Under the pieces are notes generated by a model. That model saw only the letters and a program-made list of their open reading frames with translations, had not been told where the DNA came from and did no database searches. Positions 9,197 to 62,868 of a stretch of DNA of 64,000 bases are shown here, piece by piece. This DNA comes from Phytoactinopolyspora mesophila (GTDB taxonomy: Bacteria > Actinomycetota > Actinomycetes > Jiangellales > Jiangellaceae), in NCBI RefSeq assembly GCF_010122465.1, contig NZ_WLZY01000001.1, positions 930,001 to 994,000 on the forward strand, written 5' to 3'. How positions within the stretch are numbered: position 1 is the first letter of the stretch; each line of letters begins with the position of its first letter. A program made the translations under genes and the position numbers.

Positions 9197-10435
9197 ATGA
9201 CCGATCTACTCGGACACCAGTTCACGGAGACGACGGTTACTGAACCGCCCGTGAAGAGCACACCGACCAGCCCACAGATCCTGCTCTACCCGAGGGTGCG
9301 AAAGTCTCCGTACTTCTGGCAGTCCCGCGCCCACGGTGTGGCGATGTACAGCGTGTACAACCACACATATCACCCGCGCCACTACGGCGACCCGGTCGCG
9401 GAGTACTGGCATCTGCTCAGCGACGTCACGCTGTGGGACGTCGGCGTGGAACGCCAGCTGGAGATCTCCGGCCCGGACGCCTTCGACTTCACCAACTACC
9501 TGGTCCCCCGTGACCTCAACAAATGTGCCGTCGGCCAGTGCAAGTACGTGTTCATCACCGCCCCCGACGGCGGCATCATCAACGACCCCATTCTGCTTCG
9601 CGTCGAGGAGAACCGGTTCTGGCTCTCGCTGGCGGACAGCGACGTTCGGCTATGGGCACTCGGTCTCGCCCAGGCCGGCGGCTGGAACGTGCAGATCCAG
9701 GAGGTCGACGTCGCGCCGGTCCAGGTGCAGGGGCCCAGGTCCAAAGACGTCATGGTCGACCTGTTCGGGCCGTCCATCCTCGACATGCCCTACTACTACA
9801 TGCGCAGCTACACCCTCGACGGCATGGATGTGGTCGTCAGCCGCACCGGGTACACCGGCGAGGTCGGCTACGAGATCTACTTGTACAACGCCACCGCCAA
9901 CGCCGCCCGGCTCTGGCAGGCGGTGTGGCAGGCCGGTCAGGCCCACAACATGCGGGTCATCGGGCCGTGCCACATCCGCCGGATCGAGGGCGGCATGTTG
10001 TCCTACGGCTGTGACATCACGCTCGACACCAATCCGATGGAGGTCGGTTACGACTACCGCTGGATGGTCGATCTCGACCAGGAGGCCGACTTCGTCGGCA
10101 AGGAGGCTCTCCAGCGGATCCGTGACAACGGCGTGTCCCGGCTGATGGTCGGCCTGGAGATCGACGGCGAGCCGCTCGGTTCGTTCAACGACGGCTCCAT
10201 GATCGAACCCTTCACCGTGCTCGCGCCGTCGGCCACCCACCGTGAGGTCATCGGCTCGGTGACGAGTGCGTGCTACTCCCCCAGGCTGGAGCGCAACATC
10301 GGGCTCACGATGCTCTCGCTCGAGTTCACCTCGCTCGGCACCAACGTCGTCGTAGAGACGCCTACCGGGCTGCGGGCCGGGGTCGTCGTCGAGAAGCCTT
10401 TCGTCGATCCGCGCAAGCAGACTCCACGGTCATAG
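9197..10435 (+). CDS. GcvT-family tetrahydrofolate-dependent demethylase, DmdA-like
   Basis: A 412-residue aminomethyltransferase-fold protein that would transfer a methyl group from a substrate to tetrahydrofolate. The stretches VYNHTYHPRHYG, LWDVGVERQLEISGPDA, VPRDLNKCAVGQCKYV, APVQVQGPRSKDVM and GGMLSYGCDITLDTNPME resemble, as I recall them, the corresponding stretches of marine dimethylsulfoniopropionate demethylase DmdA. They are closer to it than to housekeeping GcvT. The ligand could equally be another S-, N- or O-methyl compound, since LigM-type O-demethylases belong to the same superfamily. The AAGGGGG SD lies before the ATG. It is the first gene of a run with metF, fhs and an FAD-GcvT fusion, consistent with disposal of methyl-THF. 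Confident of the family, not of the substrate. Confidence 0.75.
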   Translation: MTDLLGHQFTETTVTEPPVKSTPTSPQILLYPRVRKSPYFWQSRAHGVAMYSVYNHTYHPRHYGDPVAEYWHLLSDVTLWDVGVERQLEISGPDAFDFTNYLVPRDLNKCAVGQCKYVFITAPDGGIINDPILLRVEENRFWLSLADSDVRLWALGLAQAGGWNVQIQEVDVAPVQVQGPRSKDVMVDLFGPSILDMPYYYMRSYTLDGMDVVVSRTGYTGEVGYEIYLYNATANAARLWQAVWQAGQAHNMRVIGPCHIRRIEGGMLSYGCDITLDTNPMEVGYDYRWMVDLDQEADFVGKEALQRIRDNGVSRLMVGLEIDGEPLGSFNDGSMIEPFTVLAPSATHREVIGSVTSACYSPRLERNIGLTMLSLEFTSLGTNVVVETPTGLRAGVVVEKPFVDPRKQTPRS

Positions 10436-10481: not shown

Positions 10482-11612
10482 ATGAAACAGCCCATCCCTG
10501 GGACACGTCGCCAGCTGGCCCGGAACCGGCAGGCTTGGCAGGCGTTGCTCGAGAGGCCGCGCTTCGAGATCATCCCGTTGCCCGGTGTCGCCGAGCGGCT
10601 GACCTATCTGCCGGCCGGGACCAAGGTCACGGTTACGGCCTCGCCCCGTCATGGCGTGGAAGCCACCGTCGGGCTCGCCGAGTCTCTAGCCAAGAGCGGA
10701 TTCGACGCGGTTCCACACCTCGCGGCGCGACAGTTCACCGACGAGGAGCTCACCGATGCGCTACATCGGCTACATGCTGCGGGCGTCCGTGATCTGTTCG
10801 TCGTCGGCGGCGACAGCCCTCCCCCCGAGGTCCGTCGTTTGGGACCTCTCCATGGTGTGGCGGGCATGCCGAGCGGCGACGCCCCTCCCCAGGAGGTCCG
10901 TCGATTGGGACCTCTCCATGGTGTGGCGGGCATCGGCGAGCGAGGAACGAGCGAGTCCGCTGGGCGGGGAGAGGTCCCAATCGACGGACCGCCTCGGGCC
11001 GGCGTCTTCCCCGACGGACTCAGTCTGCTCAAGGCCATCGACGCATCGCCATACCGGTTCGACGAGATCGGTGTGCCGTCCTACCCGGAAGGCCATCCGA
11101 ACATCGACGACGACACCCTGTGGTCCACCCTGGTGGCCAAGCAGGACTACGCCACCTACACGGTGACGCAGATGTGCTTCGACGCCGACCTCGTCCGCCG
11201 CTTCGCCATCGATGCCCGTGCACATGGCGTCACGCTGCCGATCATCGCCGGGATACCCGGCGCCGTCGCCGCGGCGAAGCTCCTGCGGGTCAGCTTCCGC
11301 ATCGGGGTGGGTGACTCGGTCCGGTTCGTCCGCAGGCACCGGGCCGTGGCCCGTCGGCTGCTCAGGCCGCACAGTTATCGCCCCGACGCACTGCTGCGCA
11401 AGTTGGTGGCGGCGACGTCCGACGATGCCGCGGTTGCTGACGAAGGCCAGGGCCGGAGGCACCGCCGGCCGGCCACCACCCGATCGCCGCTGGTGGCGGG
11501 TCTGCACATCTACACGTTCAACGAGATAGCCCCGACCGTGCGCTGGCTCGAACAGCGCCGCCGGAGCCTCAGCTCAGGAGAGGAGGTGGCCGCCGATGAC
11601 CATGCCGTCTGA
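10482..11612 (+). CDS. metF: Methylenetetrahydrofolate reductase family protein carrying an in-frame palindromic insert
   Basis: Flavin-dependent interconversion of 5-methyl- and 5,10-methylene-THF; in this island probably run oxidatively on methyl-THF. The TIM-barrel segments LTYLPAGTKVTVTASPRHG, FDAVPHLAARQF, DLFVVGGD, TQMCFDADLVRRF and PIIAGIPG are recognisable. The 376-residue product is longer than bacterial MetF (about 290-310). Residues ~116-171, between VGGDSPPP and RAGVFPDG, are encoded by a palindromic repeat element with a 66-bp tandem duplication, giving VRRLGPLHGVAG twice. The reading frame continues without a stop. The insert falls in a loop after the GGD strand, so the enzyme may still fold. 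SD GGAGA; the 3' end overlaps fhs by 17 nt. Confidence 0.82.
   Translation: MKQPIPGTRRQLARNRQAWQALLERPRFEIIPLPGVAERLTYLPAGTKVTVTASPRHGVEATVGLAESLAKSGFDAVPHLAARQFTDEELTDALHRLHAAGVRDLFVVGGDSPPPEVRRLGPLHGVAGMPSGDAPPQEVRRLGPLHGVAGIGERGTSESAGRGEVPIDGPPRAGVFPDGLSLLKAIDASPYRFDEIGVPSYPEGHPNIDDDTLWSTLVAKQDYATYTVTQMCFDADLVRRFAIDARAHGVTLPIIAGIPGAVAAAKLLRVSFRIGVGDSVRFVRRHRAVARRLLRPHSYRPDALLRKLVAATSDDAAVADEGQGRRHRRPATTRSPLVAGLHIYTFNEIAPTVRWLEQRRRSLSSGEEVAADDHAV
10829..10994. repeat. Palindromic repeat element inside metF (one full copy plus a 66-bp tandem duplication)
   Basis: The complete copy spans 10891-10994, with arms 10895-10917 and 10968-10990 that are perfect 23-bp inverse complements (27 bp with one mismatch when extended). 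The left half is present a second time starting at 10829. The segment 10809-10874 is repeated at 10875-10940, including the host codons GGCGAC. The core CCATGGTGTGGCGGGCATC matches the core of copies at 23819, about 23950 and 38534. The 66-bp duplication is a multiple of three, and the element stays open in the metF frame. Confidence 0.88.
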
Positions 11613-13293
11613 CCTCGCGGTCTCCCGTAGTGCCGTGCTTGAACCGCTGGACCACATCGCCGCCGGAATGGGACTCGGCGACCATCTGCTCGAACCGTAC
11701 GGGCGGGCGACGGCGAAGATCTCGCTCGAGGCGATCGGCGAACTCCACGACCGTCCGCCCGGCCGTTACGTCGTTGTCACCGCGATCACACCGACCCCGC
11801 TGGGTGAAGGCAAGACCACCACCACGGTGGGACTGGGGCAGGCATTCGGTGTCCTGAACCAGCGCGGCGTCATCGCCATCCGCCAGCCGTCCATGGGCCC
11901 CACGTTCGGCATCAAGGGCGGCGCCGCCGGCGGCGGCTATTCGCAAGTGGTGCCGATGGAGGCGCTGAACCTCCATCTCACCGGCGACATGCACGCGGTC
12001 ACGGCAGCCCACAACCTGCTGGCCGCCATGGTGGACAACCATCTCTTCCAGGGCAACCGGCTGGGCCTCGATCCGCACTCGGTGACCTGGCGCCGGGTGC
12101 TGGACGTCAACGACCGCCACCTGCGGCACGTCGTGACCGGCCTCGGCGGACGCGCCGACGGCACGCCCCGTCAGACCGGCTTCGACATCACCGCGGCCAG
12201 CGAGGTCATGGCCGTGCTGGCGCTGTCGGCTTCACTGCAGGACCTGCGCGCGCGCCTGGGCCGGATGGTGGTGGGCTACACCTACGACGGTGAACCCGTC
12301 ACGGCGGAGGCGATCCGCGCCGCGGGCGCCATGACCGTCATCCTGCGCGAGGCGATCAAGCCCAACCTGATGCAGACCGTGGAAGGCACCCCGGTGCTGG
12401 TGCACTGCGGTCCGTTCGGCAACATCGCCCACGGCAACTCGTCGATCATCGCCGACCGGATCGGCATCCGCGGCAGCGACTACCTGATCACCGAGGCCGG
12501 TTTCGGCGCCGATATGGGCGCGGAGCGGTTCTTCAACATCAAGTGCCGGACCTCCGGGCTGGTGCCCGACGCCGCCGTGATCGTCGCGACGGTGCGAGCC
12601 CTGAAGGCGCATTCCGGCAATTACCGCATCGTGGCCGGCAAACCGCTGCCCGAGGATCTCCTGGACGAGAACCCCAGGGATGTCTTCGAAGGTGCAGCCA
12701 ACTTGCGCCGCCAGATCGCCAACGTCCGGCTGCACGGCGTCACCCCGGTGGTGGCGGTGAACGCGTTCCCCACCGACCACCCCAGCGAGCGGCAGGTCAT
12801 CCTGGACGTCGCCGCGGAAGAAGGCGTACGCGCCGCGGTCAGCACTCATTTCTCCGATGGCGGCAAGGGCGCGGTACCGCTCGCCGAAGCAGTGGCGGAA
12901 GCCTGTGAGGAACCCTCTGAGTTCCGCCTCCTGTACGCCGACGACCTGCCGCTCACCGGCAAGATCGACACCGTTGCCAGGGGCGTGTACGGCGCCGACG
13001 GCATCGACATCGCGCCGGCGGCGCAGCGTCAGCTGGACAGCTACGAGCGCCACGGATACGGCAACCTGCCGGTCTGCATCGCCAAGACCCATCTCTCGTT
13101 GTCGGCGGATCCCACGCTCAAAGGCGCCCCGCGCGGCTGGCGGCTGCCGGTACGCGAGGTGCGGGCCTCCGTCGGCGCCGGTTTCATCTACCCGATCTGC
13201 GGCGACATGCGCACCATGCCGGCGCTCTCGTCGTCACCGGCGGCGGAACATATCGACATCGACGGCAACGGCAACATCGTCGGGCTGAAATGA
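11596..13293 (+). CDS. fhs: Formate-tetrahydrofolate ligase
   Basis: Catalyses ATP + formate + THF to 10-formyl-THF, or the reverse with ATP gain when formyl groups are disposed of. The 565-residue product carries the P-loop TPTPLGEGKTTTTVGL (about 66-80). It also carries QPSMGPTFGIKGGAAGGGY, HCGPFGNIAHGNSS, ITEAGFGADMGAERFFNIK and the C-terminal GDMRTMPALS, all typical of Fhs. AGGAGG lies 8 nt before the ATG. It overlaps metF upstream and the FAD-GcvT gene region downstream, so these genes form one operon. In this setting it likely handles the C1 units produced by the two demethylases; methenyl-THF cyclohydrolase/FolD is not in the window. Confidence 0.95.
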   Translation: MTMPSDLAVSRSAVLEPLDHIAAGMGLGDHLLEPYGRATAKISLEAIGELHDRPPGRYVVVTAITPTPLGEGKTTTTVGLGQAFGVLNQRGVIAIRQPSMGPTFGIKGGAAGGGYSQVVPMEALNLHLTGDMHAVTAAHNLLAAMVDNHLFQGNRLGLDPHSVTWRRVLDVNDRHLRHVVTGLGGRADGTPRQTGFDITAASEVMAVLALSASLQDLRARLGRMVVGYTYDGEPVTAEAIRAAGAMTVILREAIKPNLMQTVEGTPVLVHCGPFGNIAHGNSSIIADRIGIRGSDYLITEAGFGADMGAERFFNIKCRTSGLVPDAAVIVATVRALKAHSGNYRIVAGKPLPEDLLDENPRDVFEGAANLRRQIANVRLHGVTPVVAVNAFPTDHPSERQVILDVAAEEGVRAAVSTHFSDGGKGAVPLAEAVAEACEEPSEFRLLYADDLPLTGKIDTVARGVYGADGIDIAPAAQRQLDSYERHGYGNLPVCIAKTHLSLSADPTLKGAPRGWRLPVREVRASVGAGFIYPICGDMRTMPALSSSPAAEHIDIDGNGNIVGLK

Positions 13294-16634: not shown

Positions 16635-16698
16635 TGTTGATCATGGGCACATGGCACCTATTCGAGGCCCAAAAGGTCTCATCTGCCCATGATCAACA
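16635..16698. repeat. Inverted repeat between etfB and etfA
   Basis: TGTTGATCATGGGCA (16635-16649) has a perfect inverse copy at 16684-16698 with a 34-nt loop. The hairpin lies between two subunit genes that must be balanced, so it may modulate distal expression or mRNA decay. The end TGATCATGGGCAC resembles the palindrome at 62800 (TGATCATTGGCAC). Confidence 0.6.
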
Positions 16699-22291: not shown

Positions 22292-22448
22292 GCCAGTGCC
22301 TTCCTTGCGCCGCATCCCCGTCCTCGTGTGTAGTTCCCCGTCGGCAACCGGTTGCCGCCGCCCAAGTCTGCCACCTTTGGCTGGTATGACCACAACCGCC
22401 CGATCGGTCGGCACGTACCCGCCAAGCGGCTGATACCCCACCCCCACC

Positions 22449-22558
22449 CAGGCTCCACCCCCAGCCCAGGCTCCACCCCCAGCCCAGGCTCCACCCCCAG
22501 CCCAGGCTCCACCCCCAGCCCAGGCTCCACCCCCAGCCCAGGCTCCACGCCCCACTCC
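22449..22558. repeat. 18-bp tandem repeat (about six copies)
   Basis: Units GGCTCCACCCCCAGCCCA start at 22451, 22469, 22487, 22505, 22523 and 22541 and are identical except at the last copy. The 18-bp period keeps all frames open, so it creates artificial Gly/Trp/Ala or Pro/Gly/Ser reading frames. It lies upstream of the LacI gene, outside its coding part. Confidence 0.92.
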
Positions 22559-22595
22559 TACCCCTAGCCCTATCCCAGCCCCAGCCCCTTGTCGA

Positions 22596-23765: not shown

Positions 23766-23818
23766 CCACCCTCCGACAGAGTGTGTGGGGCGAGGGGAGC
23801 CAGGAGCCACCACAGGCG

Positions 23819-23929
23819 CCCGGTTTGTGGAGTCCCTCCATGGTGTGGTGGGCATCAGCGAGGGAGGCCGATGGGCGAAGCCCCGATCCGACCGAGTCTG
23901 CTGGGCAAGGAGGGACTCCATGTACCGGG
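23819..23929. repeat. Palindromic repeat element, copy A
   Basis: Arms 23819-23839 and 23909-23929 match as inverse complements at 18 of 21 positions. The core CATGGTGTGGTGGGCATCAG and the segment GACCGAGTCTGCTGGGC are shared with the copies at 38534 and, in part, in metF. It is located 54 bp upstream of the chosen zapE start. Confidence 0.85.
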
Positions 23930-23939
23930 GGCCCTAAAC

Positions 23940-24055
23940 GCTCCTGGCGCATGGAGTTCCACCGAGTGGTGGGCATCAGCGAGGGAGGCCGATGGGCGAA
24001 GCCTCGATCCGACCGAGTCTGCGGGCGGAGAGAGGTTCGATGTGCCGGGCGCGTC
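23940..24055. repeat. Palindromic repeat element, copy B (degenerate arms)
   Basis: The core GTGGTGGGCATCAGCGAGGG through CCGAGTCTGCGGGC is nearly identical to copy A, 110 bp away, but the arms have diverged and pair only partly. Its right edge ends next to the TAG stop (24056-24058) of the ABC exporter gene. Confidence 0.75.
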
Positions 24056-38317: not shown

Positions 38318-38533
38318 CCTCCGAAGAACACGTCGGGTGTGCCGGGCACACCACTAGGACGTTGTCCAGCATCGGTTGAAAGTGCTGGTCACCGCGTCGG
38401 CCTGGGGGTGACACCTGCGATACACCCCAGGTTGCGGGCACCCCCACCGCTGTACCCCACAAGTTGTGCCGGCCACCCGGGCCAGTGCACCCGGATCACC
38501 GCTGCACGCGAAAGAACTCGGCTGACCCGCCAG

Positions 38534-38652
38534 AGCGCCCGGGAGATGGAGTCTCTCCATGGCGTGGTGGGCATCAGCGAGGGAGGCCGATGGCGAAGCC
38601 TCTCCCCCGACCGAGTCTGCTGGGCGAGGAGAGACTCCATCTCCCGGGCGCT
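38534..38652. repeat. Palindromic repeat element, copy C (perfect arms)
   Basis: Arms 38534-38558 and 38628-38652 are perfect 25-bp inverse complements. The interior shares CATCAGCGAGGGAGGCCGAT and ACCGAGTCTGCTGGGC with copy A. It sits between the MMPL promoter region and the 3' end of the response regulator gene. Confidence 0.88.
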
Positions 38653-38677
38653 CGGACCAGTGCCCCAGCCGAGTCCC

Positions 38678-43382: not shown

Positions 43383-44045
43383 ATGACGACTATGAGCGGA
43401 GCAGATGCGGCTACAAAACAACGCGAACCGGAGTCGCTGAGTGCGCTGCTCGGTGGCCGAAGCGGCACAGTCGATGCCACTGCACCGCCGGCCGCGTTCG
43501 TCATCGCCTGGCTTGCCGGTGGCGAGTCCATCGTCACTGGTGTGGCCGCCGCCGTAGTCGTCGCCCTGCTCGTCGCCGGATGGCGGCTGCGGCGCGGCGC
43601 ACGCCCCAGAGCCGCCCTCGTGGGTTTGCTGGGTGTGTGCGTCGCCGCGCTCGTCGTCCTGTACACCGGGCGTGCCGCCGACTTCTTCCTGGTCCAGCTG
43701 GCCAGCAATGCTGCCAGCGCGCTCGCCTGGCTGGTCAGCATCACGGTGCGGTGGCCCCTGCTCGGCGTCGTCGTGGGTGCGGTTCTCGGTCAGAAGACCC
43801 GTTGGCGCCGCGATCCGGACCTGCTCCGCGCATACAACCGGGGCAGTGTCGTGTGGATCTTCCAGTACGTCATCCGGGTGGCGGTGTTCGCGCCGCTGTG
43901 GCTGACCGATCAGGTCGTCGCGTTGGGGGTCGCCCGGATCGCGCTGACCTGGCCGCTGATCGCCGCCTGCATCGCGGTGTCCTGGTGGGTGATCCAGCGG
44001 TCGCTGCCGCCCGCCCACCCCGGCCTCCGCCACCCCACCGAATGA
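43383..44045 (+). CDS. DUF3159 family membrane protein
   Basis: A 220-residue actinobacterial membrane protein of unknown function. It opens with a soluble stretch ending SLSALLGGRSGTVDATAP, followed by about six hydrophobic helices. RWPLLGVVVGAVLGQKTRWR and RAYNRGSVVWIFQYVIRVAV are characteristic of the family. The ATG at 43383 has no SD. The TGA stop (44043-44045) lies inside a 44-bp inverted repeat that also covers the stop of the ferrochelatase gene on the other side of the monophosphatase gene. Confidence 0.8.
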   Translation: MTTMSGADAATKQREPESLSALLGGRSGTVDATAPPAAFVIAWLAGGESIVTGVAAAVVVALLVAGWRLRRGARPRAALVGLLGVCVAALVVLYTGRAADFFLVQLASNAASALAWLVSITVRWPLLGVVVGAVLGQKTRWRRDPDLLRAYNRGSVVWIFQYVIRVAVFAPLWLTDQVVALGVARIALTWPLIAACIAVSWWVIQRSLPPAHPGLRHPTE

Positions 44046-44084
44046 TCATGTTTGGTGGGTTTTCTCGCGCCTCACCATGCCTAC
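44041..44084. repeat. Left arm of a 44-bp perfect inverted repeat
   Basis: Identical in inverse to 44986-45029. It begins AATGATCATGTTTGGTGGG and includes the DUF3159 TGA stop. With the following sequence it also forms an imperfect local hairpin (CTCGCGCCTCACCA / TGGTGACGCGCGAG), so it can act as a terminator between convergent genes. Confidence 0.9.
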
Positions 44085-44117
44085 AGTCCTGGTGACGCGC
44101 GAGAGGTCCTGGTGAGG

Positions 44118-44930: not shown

Positions 44931-44985
44931 GCAATTCTCCTCACCAGATGACCCTTGCCAGGTTTTCTCGCGCATCAACAGGACG

Positions 44986-45029
44986 GTAGGCATGGTGAGG
45001 CGCGAGAAAACCCACCAAACATGATCATT
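44986..45029. repeat. Right arm of the 44-bp perfect inverted repeat
   Basis: Inverse complement of 44041-44084 without mismatch. It includes the TGA stop of the ferrochelatase gene (45025-45027) and with 44965-44984 forms an imperfect local hairpin. Confidence 0.9.
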
Positions 45030-46164
45030 TAGGTGCGGACGGGTGGGCGGGGGCATCCCAGCCACCCAGCGCAGGTTTCGCCGCGCGCAGGTTCCGGCAG
45101 CAGTCGACGGCGCATACGTCGGCGTCAGGGCCAGGTGGGCCGACGCTGGCCCGGTCAACAGCCTCGCCGCGCTCCACGGCCGCGCGTTCGAGCAGCAGGT
45201 CGATCACGGCGGCGACGAAGTCCGGGTGAGTGCCGACGGTCGCCGCGCGGGCAGCTTCGATCCCGAACTTCTTCGCCGTGTCCAAAGCCTCGGTATCGAG
45301 GTCGTACACCACTTCCATGTGATCGGACAGGAAGCCGATCGGCGCCATCACCACGGCGCGCGTGCCCTGAGCGGCCAGTGCTTCGAGGTGGTCGTTGACG
45401 TCCGGCTCCAGCCATGGCACGTGCGGCGGTCCGCTGCGCGAACAGTAGACGAGATCGTACTCATACTGGGCGCCGGTGCGCGCGGAAACCTGAGCCGTCA
45501 CCGCCTGCGCGACCGCCTCATGCTGTTCGATGTAAGCGTTGCCGTTCGCGCCCGACGTCTCGGCCATGGCCACCGGGATGGAGTGTGTGACGAACACCAG
45601 GCGAGCTTGCTCGGCAGCGTCCCTGGACAGTTCCCCCAACGCGCCGACCACACTGTCCGTGTTAGCCGAGACGAACCCCGGATGGTCGAAACTATGCCGG
45701 AGACGGTCGATTCGCGGCGCCGCCGGCCCGACCTCGGCTACCGACTCGGCCAGGTTCTCGCGGTACTGCCGGCAACCGGAGTAAGACGCGTACGCACTGG
45801 TGATGAAGGCCGCGACCCGGCCCATGCCGTCGGCGGCCATCCGTTTGACCTCGTCGGTGAGGTACGGATGCCAGTTGCGGTTGCCCCAATACACCGGGAT
45901 CGACAGCCCGGCTTCGGCGAGCTCATGTTGGAGATTGGCGACGAAAGCGCGGTTCTGGTCGTTGATGGGGCTCTTGCCACCGAAGGCGCGGTAGTGCTCA
46001 CCGACCTCTTCGAGCCGCTCACGTGGCACGTCCTTGCCGCGGGTGACGTTCCCGAGAAACGGGATGACGTCTTCTTGGCCTTCGGGCCCCCCGAACGACA
46101 CCACCAAGAGCGCGTCGTAAGGCGCGAGGCGGGTTTCCGCGGCATCAGCATCCAAGCTACTCAC
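45025..46164 (-). CDS. hemH: Ferrochelatase (coproporphyrin III type, 2Fe-2S)
   Basis: Inserts Fe2+ into coproporphyrin III in the actinobacterial/firmicute haem pathway (also called CpfC). The 379-residue product has ALLVVSFGGPEGQEDVIPFL, PVYWGNRNWHPYL, the active-site region LVFVTHSIPVAMAET and VMAPIGFLSDHMEVVYDLD. Cluster ligands are C131 (YSGCRQYRE) and a C-terminal CAVDCC (C351, C355, C356), as in mycobacterial enzymes. The SD GGGAGG fits GTG 46164. Single gene divergent from a lipoprotein gene. Confidence 0.95.
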   Translation of the reverse strand: MSSLDADAAETRLAPYDALLVVSFGGPEGQEDVIPFLGNVTRGKDVPRERLEEVGEHYRAFGGKSPINDQNRAFVANLQHELAEAGLSIPVYWGNRNWHPYLTDEVKRMAADGMGRVAAFITSAYASYSGCRQYRENLAESVAEVGPAAPRIDRLRHSFDHPGFVSANTDSVVGALGELSRDAAEQARLVFVTHSIPVAMAETSGANGNAYIEQHEAVAQAVTAQVSARTGAQYEYDLVYCSRSGPPHVPWLEPDVNDHLEALAAQGTRAVVMAPIGFLSDHMEVVYDLDTEALDTAKKFGIEAARAATVGTHPDFVAAVIDLLLERAAVERGEAVDRASVGPPGPDADVCAVDCCRNLRAAKPALGGWDAPAHPSAPK

Positions 46165-61396: not shown

Positions 61397-62802
61397 CCCC
61401 GGGACCGACCGAGATGAGCGGCCGCTCGCCCTGGTCCGTCCGGCTCAAGCTCTCCCTGCGGGCGCAACTCACCATCGCCGCGACCACCGTCGCCGCGCTG
61501 GTCCTCACCGTCGGTGGGACTCTCACGCTGATCATGCTCCAGCAGACGCTGCTGCGGGAACTGGACGAGTCCGCCCGCAGCCACGGCCATGACATCGCCG
61601 CGCTCGTCGAGGCCGATCGTCTCACCAACCCCCTACCGAGTTCGGGGGCCGCCATCGCGCAGGTCGTCGACGCCCAAGGCCGTGTGCTGGCATCGACACC
61701 AGGCGGCGACCGGCTGGTGCCGATCCTGAGCCGGGACGATCTGGCCGTGGTGCGAGCAGGTGAGGCGATCGACATGCCCGGCACCCGGATCGGGCAGCCG
61801 GAGCCGTTCCGGGCCATAGGTATCGAGACCGGCCCTCCGGACGGACCTCAGACGGTGCTCGTCGCGGTGTCGCTGGCCGAGCAGCGGCGTACGGCCAACT
61901 TGCTCAGGCTCGCGATCGTCGGGGCCGGCGTGGTCGTGGCCGCGGCTGTGGGTTTGCTGAGCTGGTTCGTCACGGGGCGGACGCTCCGGCCGGTCGAGCA
62001 GTTGCGCAGCGGTGCCGCCGAGATCACCGGAACCGGCGAACAACGTCTGCTGCCGGTGCCGGTCGCCCGGGATGAGCTGCACCGGCTGGCCACCACCCTC
62101 AACGACATGCTGAAACGCCTCGAGGCGGCCTCTGCCCGGCAGCGCGCGTTCGTCGCCGATGCCGCCCACGAGCTGCGCAGCCCGATCGCGGCGCTGCGGA
62201 CCGAGCTGGAAGTCGGGCTCGCCCATCCGGACGCCGTCGACCCGTACGAAACCGCCCGTGAAGCGCTCGCCGAGGTGGAGCGGATGGAGCGGCTGGTCGA
62301 AGACCTGCTGATTCTGGCTCGCCTCGACGAGCCACGGCGCCGGACGTCCACCGACGTCGACCTGCGTGACGTGACCCGCGACGTCGTCGATCAGCTGCGC
62401 GACCCCCGGGTGCCGATACGTGTCGACGCCACGGAGTCGGCCTGGGTGTTCGGGGATCCCCACGCGCTGGGCCGCTTGGTCCGCAACCTGGTCGACAACG
62501 CGGTCCGGCATGCCGTCACCGGGGTGGACGTCGACGTCCGCAGCCTCGGCATCCTCACTGAGCTGCGGGTGAGCAACGACGGCCCGCCTGTCCCACTCGC
62601 CGACCGGGAGCGGATCTTCGAACGTTTCACCAGACTGGACGACGCCCGGGGCCGCGACGCCGGTGGCACCGGCCTGGGCTTGGCGATCGTCCGCGAGATC
62701 GCCCAGGCGCACGGCGGGCACGTGACGGTGGGCGACGCCTTTCCCGGTGCCCGATTCACCGTCCGGCTGCCGGTCCGCCACTCCGGCACACGCCTCTCGT
62801 GA
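61393..62802 (+). CDS. Sensor histidine kinase, HisKA type
   Basis: A 469-residue kinase: transmembrane helix 1 at ~25-45 (LTIAATTVAALVLTVGGTLT), an extracellular sensor loop of about 130 residues, helix 2 (IVGAGVVVAAAVGLLSWFV), HAMP domain, and phosphoacceptor FVADAAHELRSPIAALRTEL. HATPase motifs are RLVRNLVDNAVRHA, RIFERFTRLDDARG and GGTGLGLAIVREIAQAHGG. Cognate to the overlapping OmpR-type regulator. The stop TGA is the first three bases of a 50-bp palindrome. Confidence 0.94.
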   Translation: MTPGPTEMSGRSPWSVRLKLSLRAQLTIAATTVAALVLTVGGTLTLIMLQQTLLRELDESARSHGHDIAALVEADRLTNPLPSSGAAIAQVVDAQGRVLASTPGGDRLVPILSRDDLAVVRAGEAIDMPGTRIGQPEPFRAIGIETGPPDGPQTVLVAVSLAEQRRTANLLRLAIVGAGVVVAAAVGLLSWFVTGRTLRPVEQLRSGAAEITGTGEQRLLPVPVARDELHRLATTLNDMLKRLEAASARQRAFVADAAHELRSPIAALRTELEVGLAHPDAVDPYETAREALAEVERMERLVEDLLILARLDEPRRRTSTDVDLRDVTRDVVDQLRDPRVPIRVDATESAWVFGDPHALGRLVRNLVDNAVRHAVTGVDVDVRSLGILTELRVSNDGPPVPLADRERIFERFTRLDDARGRDAGGTGLGLAIVREIAQAHGGHVTVGDAFPGARFTVRLPVRHSGTRLS

Positions 62803-62849
62803 TCATTGGCACTTGACCACCGAATTCGGTGGTCAAGTGCCAATGATCA
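62800..62849. terminator. 50-bp perfect palindrome at the kinase stop codon
   Basis: Both halves (62800-62824 and 62825-62849) are exact inverse complements with GAATTC at the centre and no loop. It starts with the TGA of the kinase gene. It can form a very stable hairpin, so terminator function is likely. The ends TGATCATTGGCAC resemble the etfB-etfA repeat. Confidence 0.8.
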
Positions 62850-62868
62850 TGGGATACGCTCGGCGCTC

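Follow-up and report, generated by a model that had tools for sequence, protein, structure and literature searches.

A dispersed palindromic element of the Jiangellaceae, with a conserved loop and arms that change in concert, lies in frame in metF and other conserved genes

A metF-like gene carries, in frame, a copy of a dispersed palindromic element, which is specific to the Jiangellaceae lineage and is composed of a variable arm, a conserved loop and a complementary arm. The gene lies in the window, by which we mean the whole 64,000-nucleotide stretch of DNA analyzed here (G000:C1:930001–994000, from a genome of 6.51 Mb in 27 contigs; Table 1). We regard the family to which this copy belongs, with its kept loop and its arms changing in concert, as the main and more interesting result. 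The initial annotation, which had focused on the insert in metF, was incomplete, as the metF copy is one of several in-gene copies in a family with at least 90 matches, and it missed the main feature, namely that the arms vary from one copy to another without losing their complementarity. As a whole, the observations are probably best explained by a dispersed palindrome of the Jiangellaceae, the arms of which are held by template switching and the copies of which persist where they are harmless.

Table 1. Features of the metF locus and family members in the window
Feature	Position	Strand	Basis
GcvT/DmdA-like demethylase gene, upstream context	9197..10435	+	
metF-like gene (MTHFR family, 376 aa), with the element in frame	10482..11612	+	ORF and PF02219 match
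171-bp (57-codon) segment missing from 37/37 distinct aligned relatives	10827..10997	+	protein alignment
Left-half element, partial, composed of arm (10829-10851), start of the loop (10852-10867) and junction (10868-10872)	10829..10872	+	
Complete palindromic element, same orientation as metF	10887..10998	+	
Left arm, perfect 23-bp part	10895..10917	+	
Conserved 50-nt loop, short-loop type	10918..10967	+	
Right arm, perfect 23-bp part	10968..10990	+	
Formate-tetrahydrofolate ligase gene, downstream context	11596..13293	+	
Intergenic member of the family, long-loop type, 4 of 25 arm positions mismatched	23815..23933	+	
Intergenic member of the family, arms degenerate with 3 of 15 positions mismatched	23938..24054	+	
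Intergenic family member, perfect 26-bp arms	38533..38653	+	

The annotated in-frame insertion is borne out. The metF frame is free of stops along its whole length, and PF02219 (MTHFR) matches the product in two stretches; the product scores under the NCBIfam equivalog cut-offs for MTHFR. Alignment with relatives showed that the 57 residues E116–R172 are missing from all 37 distinct sequences (42 other rows, four congeners included), after 5 of 40 loci (L085–L089) that were too weak and fell below the cut-off had been left out. The insert had been put at about 57 residues, which is correct, and at positions 116–171, which is not quite. LGPLHGVAGIGER is an example of a peptide within it. The two flanks of the metF site give directly abutting matches in G001 and G004, and Sphingobium MTHFR (7xg9), the nearest solved relative, aligns on both flanks and lacks the segment. 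In the metF copy, the one inspected in this respect, CCTC is present at both insert junctions and might represent a target-site duplication.

In an AlphaFold2 model built from the relatives' alignment, most of the MetF barrel has a pLDDT above 90 and the fold matches MTHFR, while 10-residue blocks between residues 111 and 170 have mean pLDDT values of 32–62 and no secondary structure. The element is thus predicted to extend MetF by a loop that follows barrel strand 4 and is disordered in the model, much as had been surmised, and the MetF fold can, judging by the contrast between the unstructured segment and the confident barrel, accommodate it. The step from a surface loop to an active enzyme was nevertheless taken too easily: the insert starts five residues after Asp111, which is invariant in 32 sequences, and the genome has another MTHFR-like gene. 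We take Asp111 to correspond to Asp120, the catalytic residue in the E. coli enzyme. An Asp120Ala mutant of MTHFR is listed in the PDB. The closeness of the insert to this putative catalytic residue is a reason for caution regarding the predicted activity of MetF. Moreover, a loss of activity could be tolerated, since the second MTHFR-like gene (C1:1130572–1131402, 37–39% identity) has no insert.

The complete element in metF has 31-nt arms with two mismatches, within which the annotated 23-bp perfect arms were recovered. Its left half is duplicated as described, a 61-nt copy at 10807–10867 recurring at 10873–10933 with 92% identity and a period of 66. By contrast, it is doubtful that two host codons (GCGGCGAC) were duplicated along with it; they may be the element's own, because at four more loci (L090, L097, L239 and L241) the element, or half of one, likewise has GGGCATGYYGAGCGGCGA after its loop start. 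Partial tandem copies resembling the one in metF occur at further loci, in frame at L225 and L289. As a separate observation, pieces adjoining the element at L225 and at L289 (an EccC-like ATPase of G001) have undergone in-frame tandem expansion. The repeat had also been noted between genes of the window, and three such family members were found there (Table 1).

Within its own genome, a 201-bp query from metF gave 49 matches, three of them at the metF locus, and a 17-mer of the loop occurred, with up to two mismatches, at 60 places, compared to four for the reversed control; the metF copy itself matches the family model, which was partly built from it, with an E-value of 8.1e-20. Chance is therefore excluded as the source of this repetition. 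A covariance model built from the own copies (R1) returned at least 90 matches in this genome at E 0.01, of which 12 have arms shorter than 13 bp and do not enter the counts below. At E 0.001, matches were found in 11 of 22 genomes of the family, the own genome included. As lower bounds, with the best 150 candidates scored per genome, there were 3–27 matches in the other genomes of the own genus and of genus g2, and 0–7 in genus g5, presumably Jiangella. In a sample of the class, in which the best 15 candidates were scored, 9 of 246 genomes had matches, and eight of these nine, again including the own genome, belong to the Jiangellaceae. The relatives' copies studied below come from 54 of at least 87 matches in family genomes outside the own genome (G003 14/19, G005 20/27, G002 13/16, G001 3/5, G004 3/3 and G012 1/7, with none from G006, G015, G016 and G019). 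They gave 57 model matches, with L281 counted on both strands; three weak extras were dropped from the copy table.

Ten loci gave no match at gathering score in Rfam 15, so that a described Rfam family was rejected; the exact loop pattern was absent from the viral contigs searched, and the metF copy matched nothing among plasmids. In keeping with what had been suspected, a literature search whose reach excluded most subscription papers yielded no published actinobacterial counterpart, a search for double-hairpin elements yielded nothing relevant, and the accessible part of the Jiangella genome paper mentions palindromes or repeats solely in the context of CRISPR. Like the present family, REP elements with their RAYT are dispersed intergenic palindromes that are also grouped in tandem, but REP stems measure 6–13 bp and carry GTAG or CGTC ends, according to the available portion of PMC3733652, whereas the present arms are of a longer, variable type, and the tables inspected show no shared end of this kind. 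Together with a search for the Y1 transposase (PF01797), the sole transposase family looked for, which had no match in any of 22 genomes at E 0.001 while the control gave matches in 5 of the 14 named genomes, this led us to reject a REP/RAYT identity. Nor does the family have the fixed terminal inverted repeats of an IS-derived MITE, as the terminal arms differ between copies.

Across copies, the loop is conserved and measures 40–70 nt in 125 of 132 copies, while the arms, 18–33 nt long in 117 of 132, differ from copy to copy yet remain near-perfect reverse complements in the tabulated copies (perfect in 58 of 132). Among own copies (n=41), 96.6% of 899 arm cells pair, and there are 236 double changes, compared to 57 in shuffles and 32–48 in slid controls. 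The 57 matches from relatives behave alike, with 96.8% of 1219 arm cells paired and 403 double changes versus 98 in shuffled and 64–99 in slid controls, in an alignment that was fitted to the model and hence biased towards it, and in which one locus was entered on both strands. In total, 3104 arm pairs over 132 copies comprise 2986 Watson-Crick pairs, 46 G.T, 20 A.C and 52 others. The excess of G.T over A.C (p 0.002) is seen on the plus strand of the element, which is usually the strand opposite to the neighboring gene's mRNA.

Copies of the same genome with identical cores have arms that differ at 4–12 of 18 positions (26 pairs). Such identical cores with very different arms are what one would expect if the loop alone were mobile and an inverted duplication of target DNA made new arms at each insertion. 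We consider this very improbable and largely refuted, given that in metF, in CobB and in the FAD oxidoreductase gene both arms are extra relative to the empty sites; furthermore, the arms have subfamily consensus sequences in common, for example CCGG..ATGGAGTCTCTCC, and vary from species to species where a site is shared.

This last point can be followed at shared sites, which we recognized by their flanking genes. Of fourteen cross-species pairs written out, the count was confined to the five in which the arms permit alignment; together these show 19 double changes (10 transversions and 9 transitions) and 89 unchanged sites, with 19 further arm sites unpaired in one or the other species. At L284/L254 (G002/G003), where the flanking DNA is nearly identical on one side and largely similar on the other, four positions are altered identically on the two arms, and a single position does not pair. 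In the pair L281/L255, adjacent GA has become CC on both arms, and L278/L250 has both-arm changes at five positions. The CydD pair L291/L294 and the hydantoinase pair L257/L292 add three and five double changes, respectively; both need a gapped alignment, and an independent re-insertion at the same site is possible for both. In three other pairs (L237/L268, L245/L292 and L214b/L265), the loop lies in reversed orientation with respect to the genes around it. This may be a spacer inversion, which is a mark of template switching, or just as likely a re-insertion, since the arms of these pairs align poorly.

The element is found repeatedly in frame in conserved genes, in which its open frame encodes a Gly/Ser/Pro/Arg-rich segment, and the insertion site is often a linker between domains. 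Genes were called by a codon score trained on the own genome and applied to the relatives too. The own genome has six such copies: besides metF, these are in CobB (L234), a FAD oxidoreductase with a BFD domain (L231), CydD (L236), a two-ATPase ABC protein identified with Pfam (L098) and an ADP-ribosylglycohydrolase-like ORF (L225, C6:308328), which the codon score missed and which was recognized via its orthologue L282 and its open frame. Two further own copies (L100 and L233) lie in N-terminal extensions of ABC ATPases, the start codons of which are uncertain. The segment is absent from all 17 relatives of the FAD oxidoreductase and from all 12 CobB rows, which represent 8 genomes; two of these genomes carry different linkers of comparable length. 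A PDB search with CobB found no match. Among relatives, 9 of 54 copies lie inside called genes, the hosts being CydD (G001 and G004), hydantoinase A/B fusions (G003, G004 and G005), an EccC/EssC-like ATPase (G001), a branched-chain amino-acid permease-ATPase fusion (G005), and an ADP-ribosylglycohydrolase and a copper amine oxidase (both G002). In the CydD linker, the element is present in three species and absent from 17 other aligned relatives. By a post hoc count made by eye, which includes the two uncertain N-terminal cases, seven of eight sense insertion events are in the same frame (p 0.008), and other frames of some sense insertions are closed by stops. That repeats were collapsed into genes by faulty assembly or annotation would be conceivable for a 27-contig assembly, as assemblers are confused by repeats. 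This reading deserves next to no credence, however, as in-frame copies inside genes occur in five other assemblies (G001–G005), the CydD site is shared by three, the frames are open and homology resumes on both sides. As an aside, the CydD linker is also longer in L362 (G006) and L356 (G005), with a different peptide that is repeated in G006 (SVAEKHATEPS...); this is perhaps a second repeat family at the same permissive site.

Between genes, placement is far from even. We considered 115 intergenic copies (70 own and 45 from relatives), to the exclusion of copies inside genes and of one lacking two neighbor genes. Of these, 54 lie in convergent spacers, 40 in tandem antisense, 19 in tandem sense and 2 in divergent orientation, as opposed to a background in which 56 spacers are convergent, 70 divergent and 182 tandem. 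The right end faces the 3' end of a gene in 94 copies, at a median distance of 17 bp and within 60 bp in 89 of the 94. In convergent spacers the right side is nearer (16 vs 67.5 bp, p 2e-8), and in tandem spacers antisense copies outnumber sense copies clearly in the own genome (26 vs 10, p 0.011) but not in relatives (14 vs 9, p 0.40). Given these right ends, placement or survival favors the DNA right behind stop codons, mostly in one orientation.

This distribution, together with the conservation of several sites between species, is what recommends a rival view, in which the hairpins serve a function at 3' ends, as terminators or as mRNA stabilizers, the covariation of the arms results from selection on an RNA stem, and the copies in genes are accidental. 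We judge this view unlikely. Most tails lack a T-tract, as at least four T in eight positions are found in only 12 of 99, for which reason a canonical intrinsic terminator was rejected, and 3 to 90 copies per genome in the genus, albeit lower bounds, are too few for a general terminator. Furthermore, G.T pairs are rare and commoner opposite the neighbor's mRNA strand, which is the wrong direction for selection on the mRNA; the arms also covary inside coding genes; and adjacent double transversions are seen.

We instead favor the template-switching explanation, according to which a hairpin would form during replication and one arm would be copied from the other, so that complementarity is kept by arm copying and not by selection on RNA. 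The adjacent double transversions, the rarity of wobble pairs and the same behavior inside coding sequence all point to such copying; the nine transitions among the double changes could also arise via a G.U intermediate under compensatory selection. The copies would spread, and would survive where they are harmless, whether downstream of genes or in protein loops that tolerate them, while their long retention and their position behind stop codons could also reflect selection for a 3'-end function. More tentatively, and with somewhat less than an even chance of being right, the heritable identity of the element might be its loop, with arms that are continually rewritten by arm-to-arm copying. 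If so, the arm sequence would drift fast and a near-perfect hairpin would persist without selection, and proteins would be supplied with ever-changing in-frame linker peptides.

There is precedent for the parts of this proposal. Template switching at inverted repeats homogenizes arms (PMC8794818; PMC8604942; PMC6649704, each in its accessible part), also within genes (PMC8604942; PMC8794818). The mutations described in the available text of PMC8604942 likewise combine arm homogenization with spacer inversion in coding DNA, but concern short repeats in yeast genes and not a dispersed bacterial family. In the mitochondria of Nematomorpha, perfect inverted repeats in protein genes have co-changing arms, for which repeat conversion by template switching was proposed; these repeats are long and mitochondrial, and the accessible part of the report does not mention a dispersed family with a shared loop such as the present one (PMC6649704).

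The closest likeness is to RPE and the related Wolbachia elements, dispersed palindromes of about 105–146 bp between genes and, in frame, within conserved protein genes, by which protein-coding palindromes were already known from Rickettsia and Wolbachia (PMC2229807, as far as its available part goes). Here, too, a palindrome is dispersed between and within genes, and its in-frame copies in metF, CobB and the FAD oxidoreductase are absent from relatives, so that the comparison with RPE drawn in the initial annotation holds. By analogy, it seems apt to view the element as repeat DNA that may enter genes at permissive places and stay open. The present family differs from RPE in its actinobacterial host and in its conserved loop and copy-specific arms evolving in concert; RPE are instead reported to lose their repeat identity with time (PMC6649704, accessible part). 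In the present case, such palindromes are found in high-GC actinobacteria and in several enzymes, and an insertion site may be common to different species. The family offers dozens of natural replicates for the question of whether compensatory selection or template copying keeps long hairpins perfect, and for that of how repeat DNA turns into protein sequence.

Some other repeats were observed in the window. An array of 18-nt direct repeats is located at 22423–22566, and an inverted repeat of 100 nt, 81% complementary, has its halves 835 nt apart at 44018–44117 and 44953–45052. Finally, two long hairpins at 16635–16698 (TGTTGATCATGGGCA...) and 62795–62854 (TCTCGTGATCATTGGCA...), both with GATCAT in their arms, possibly represent another hairpin family.
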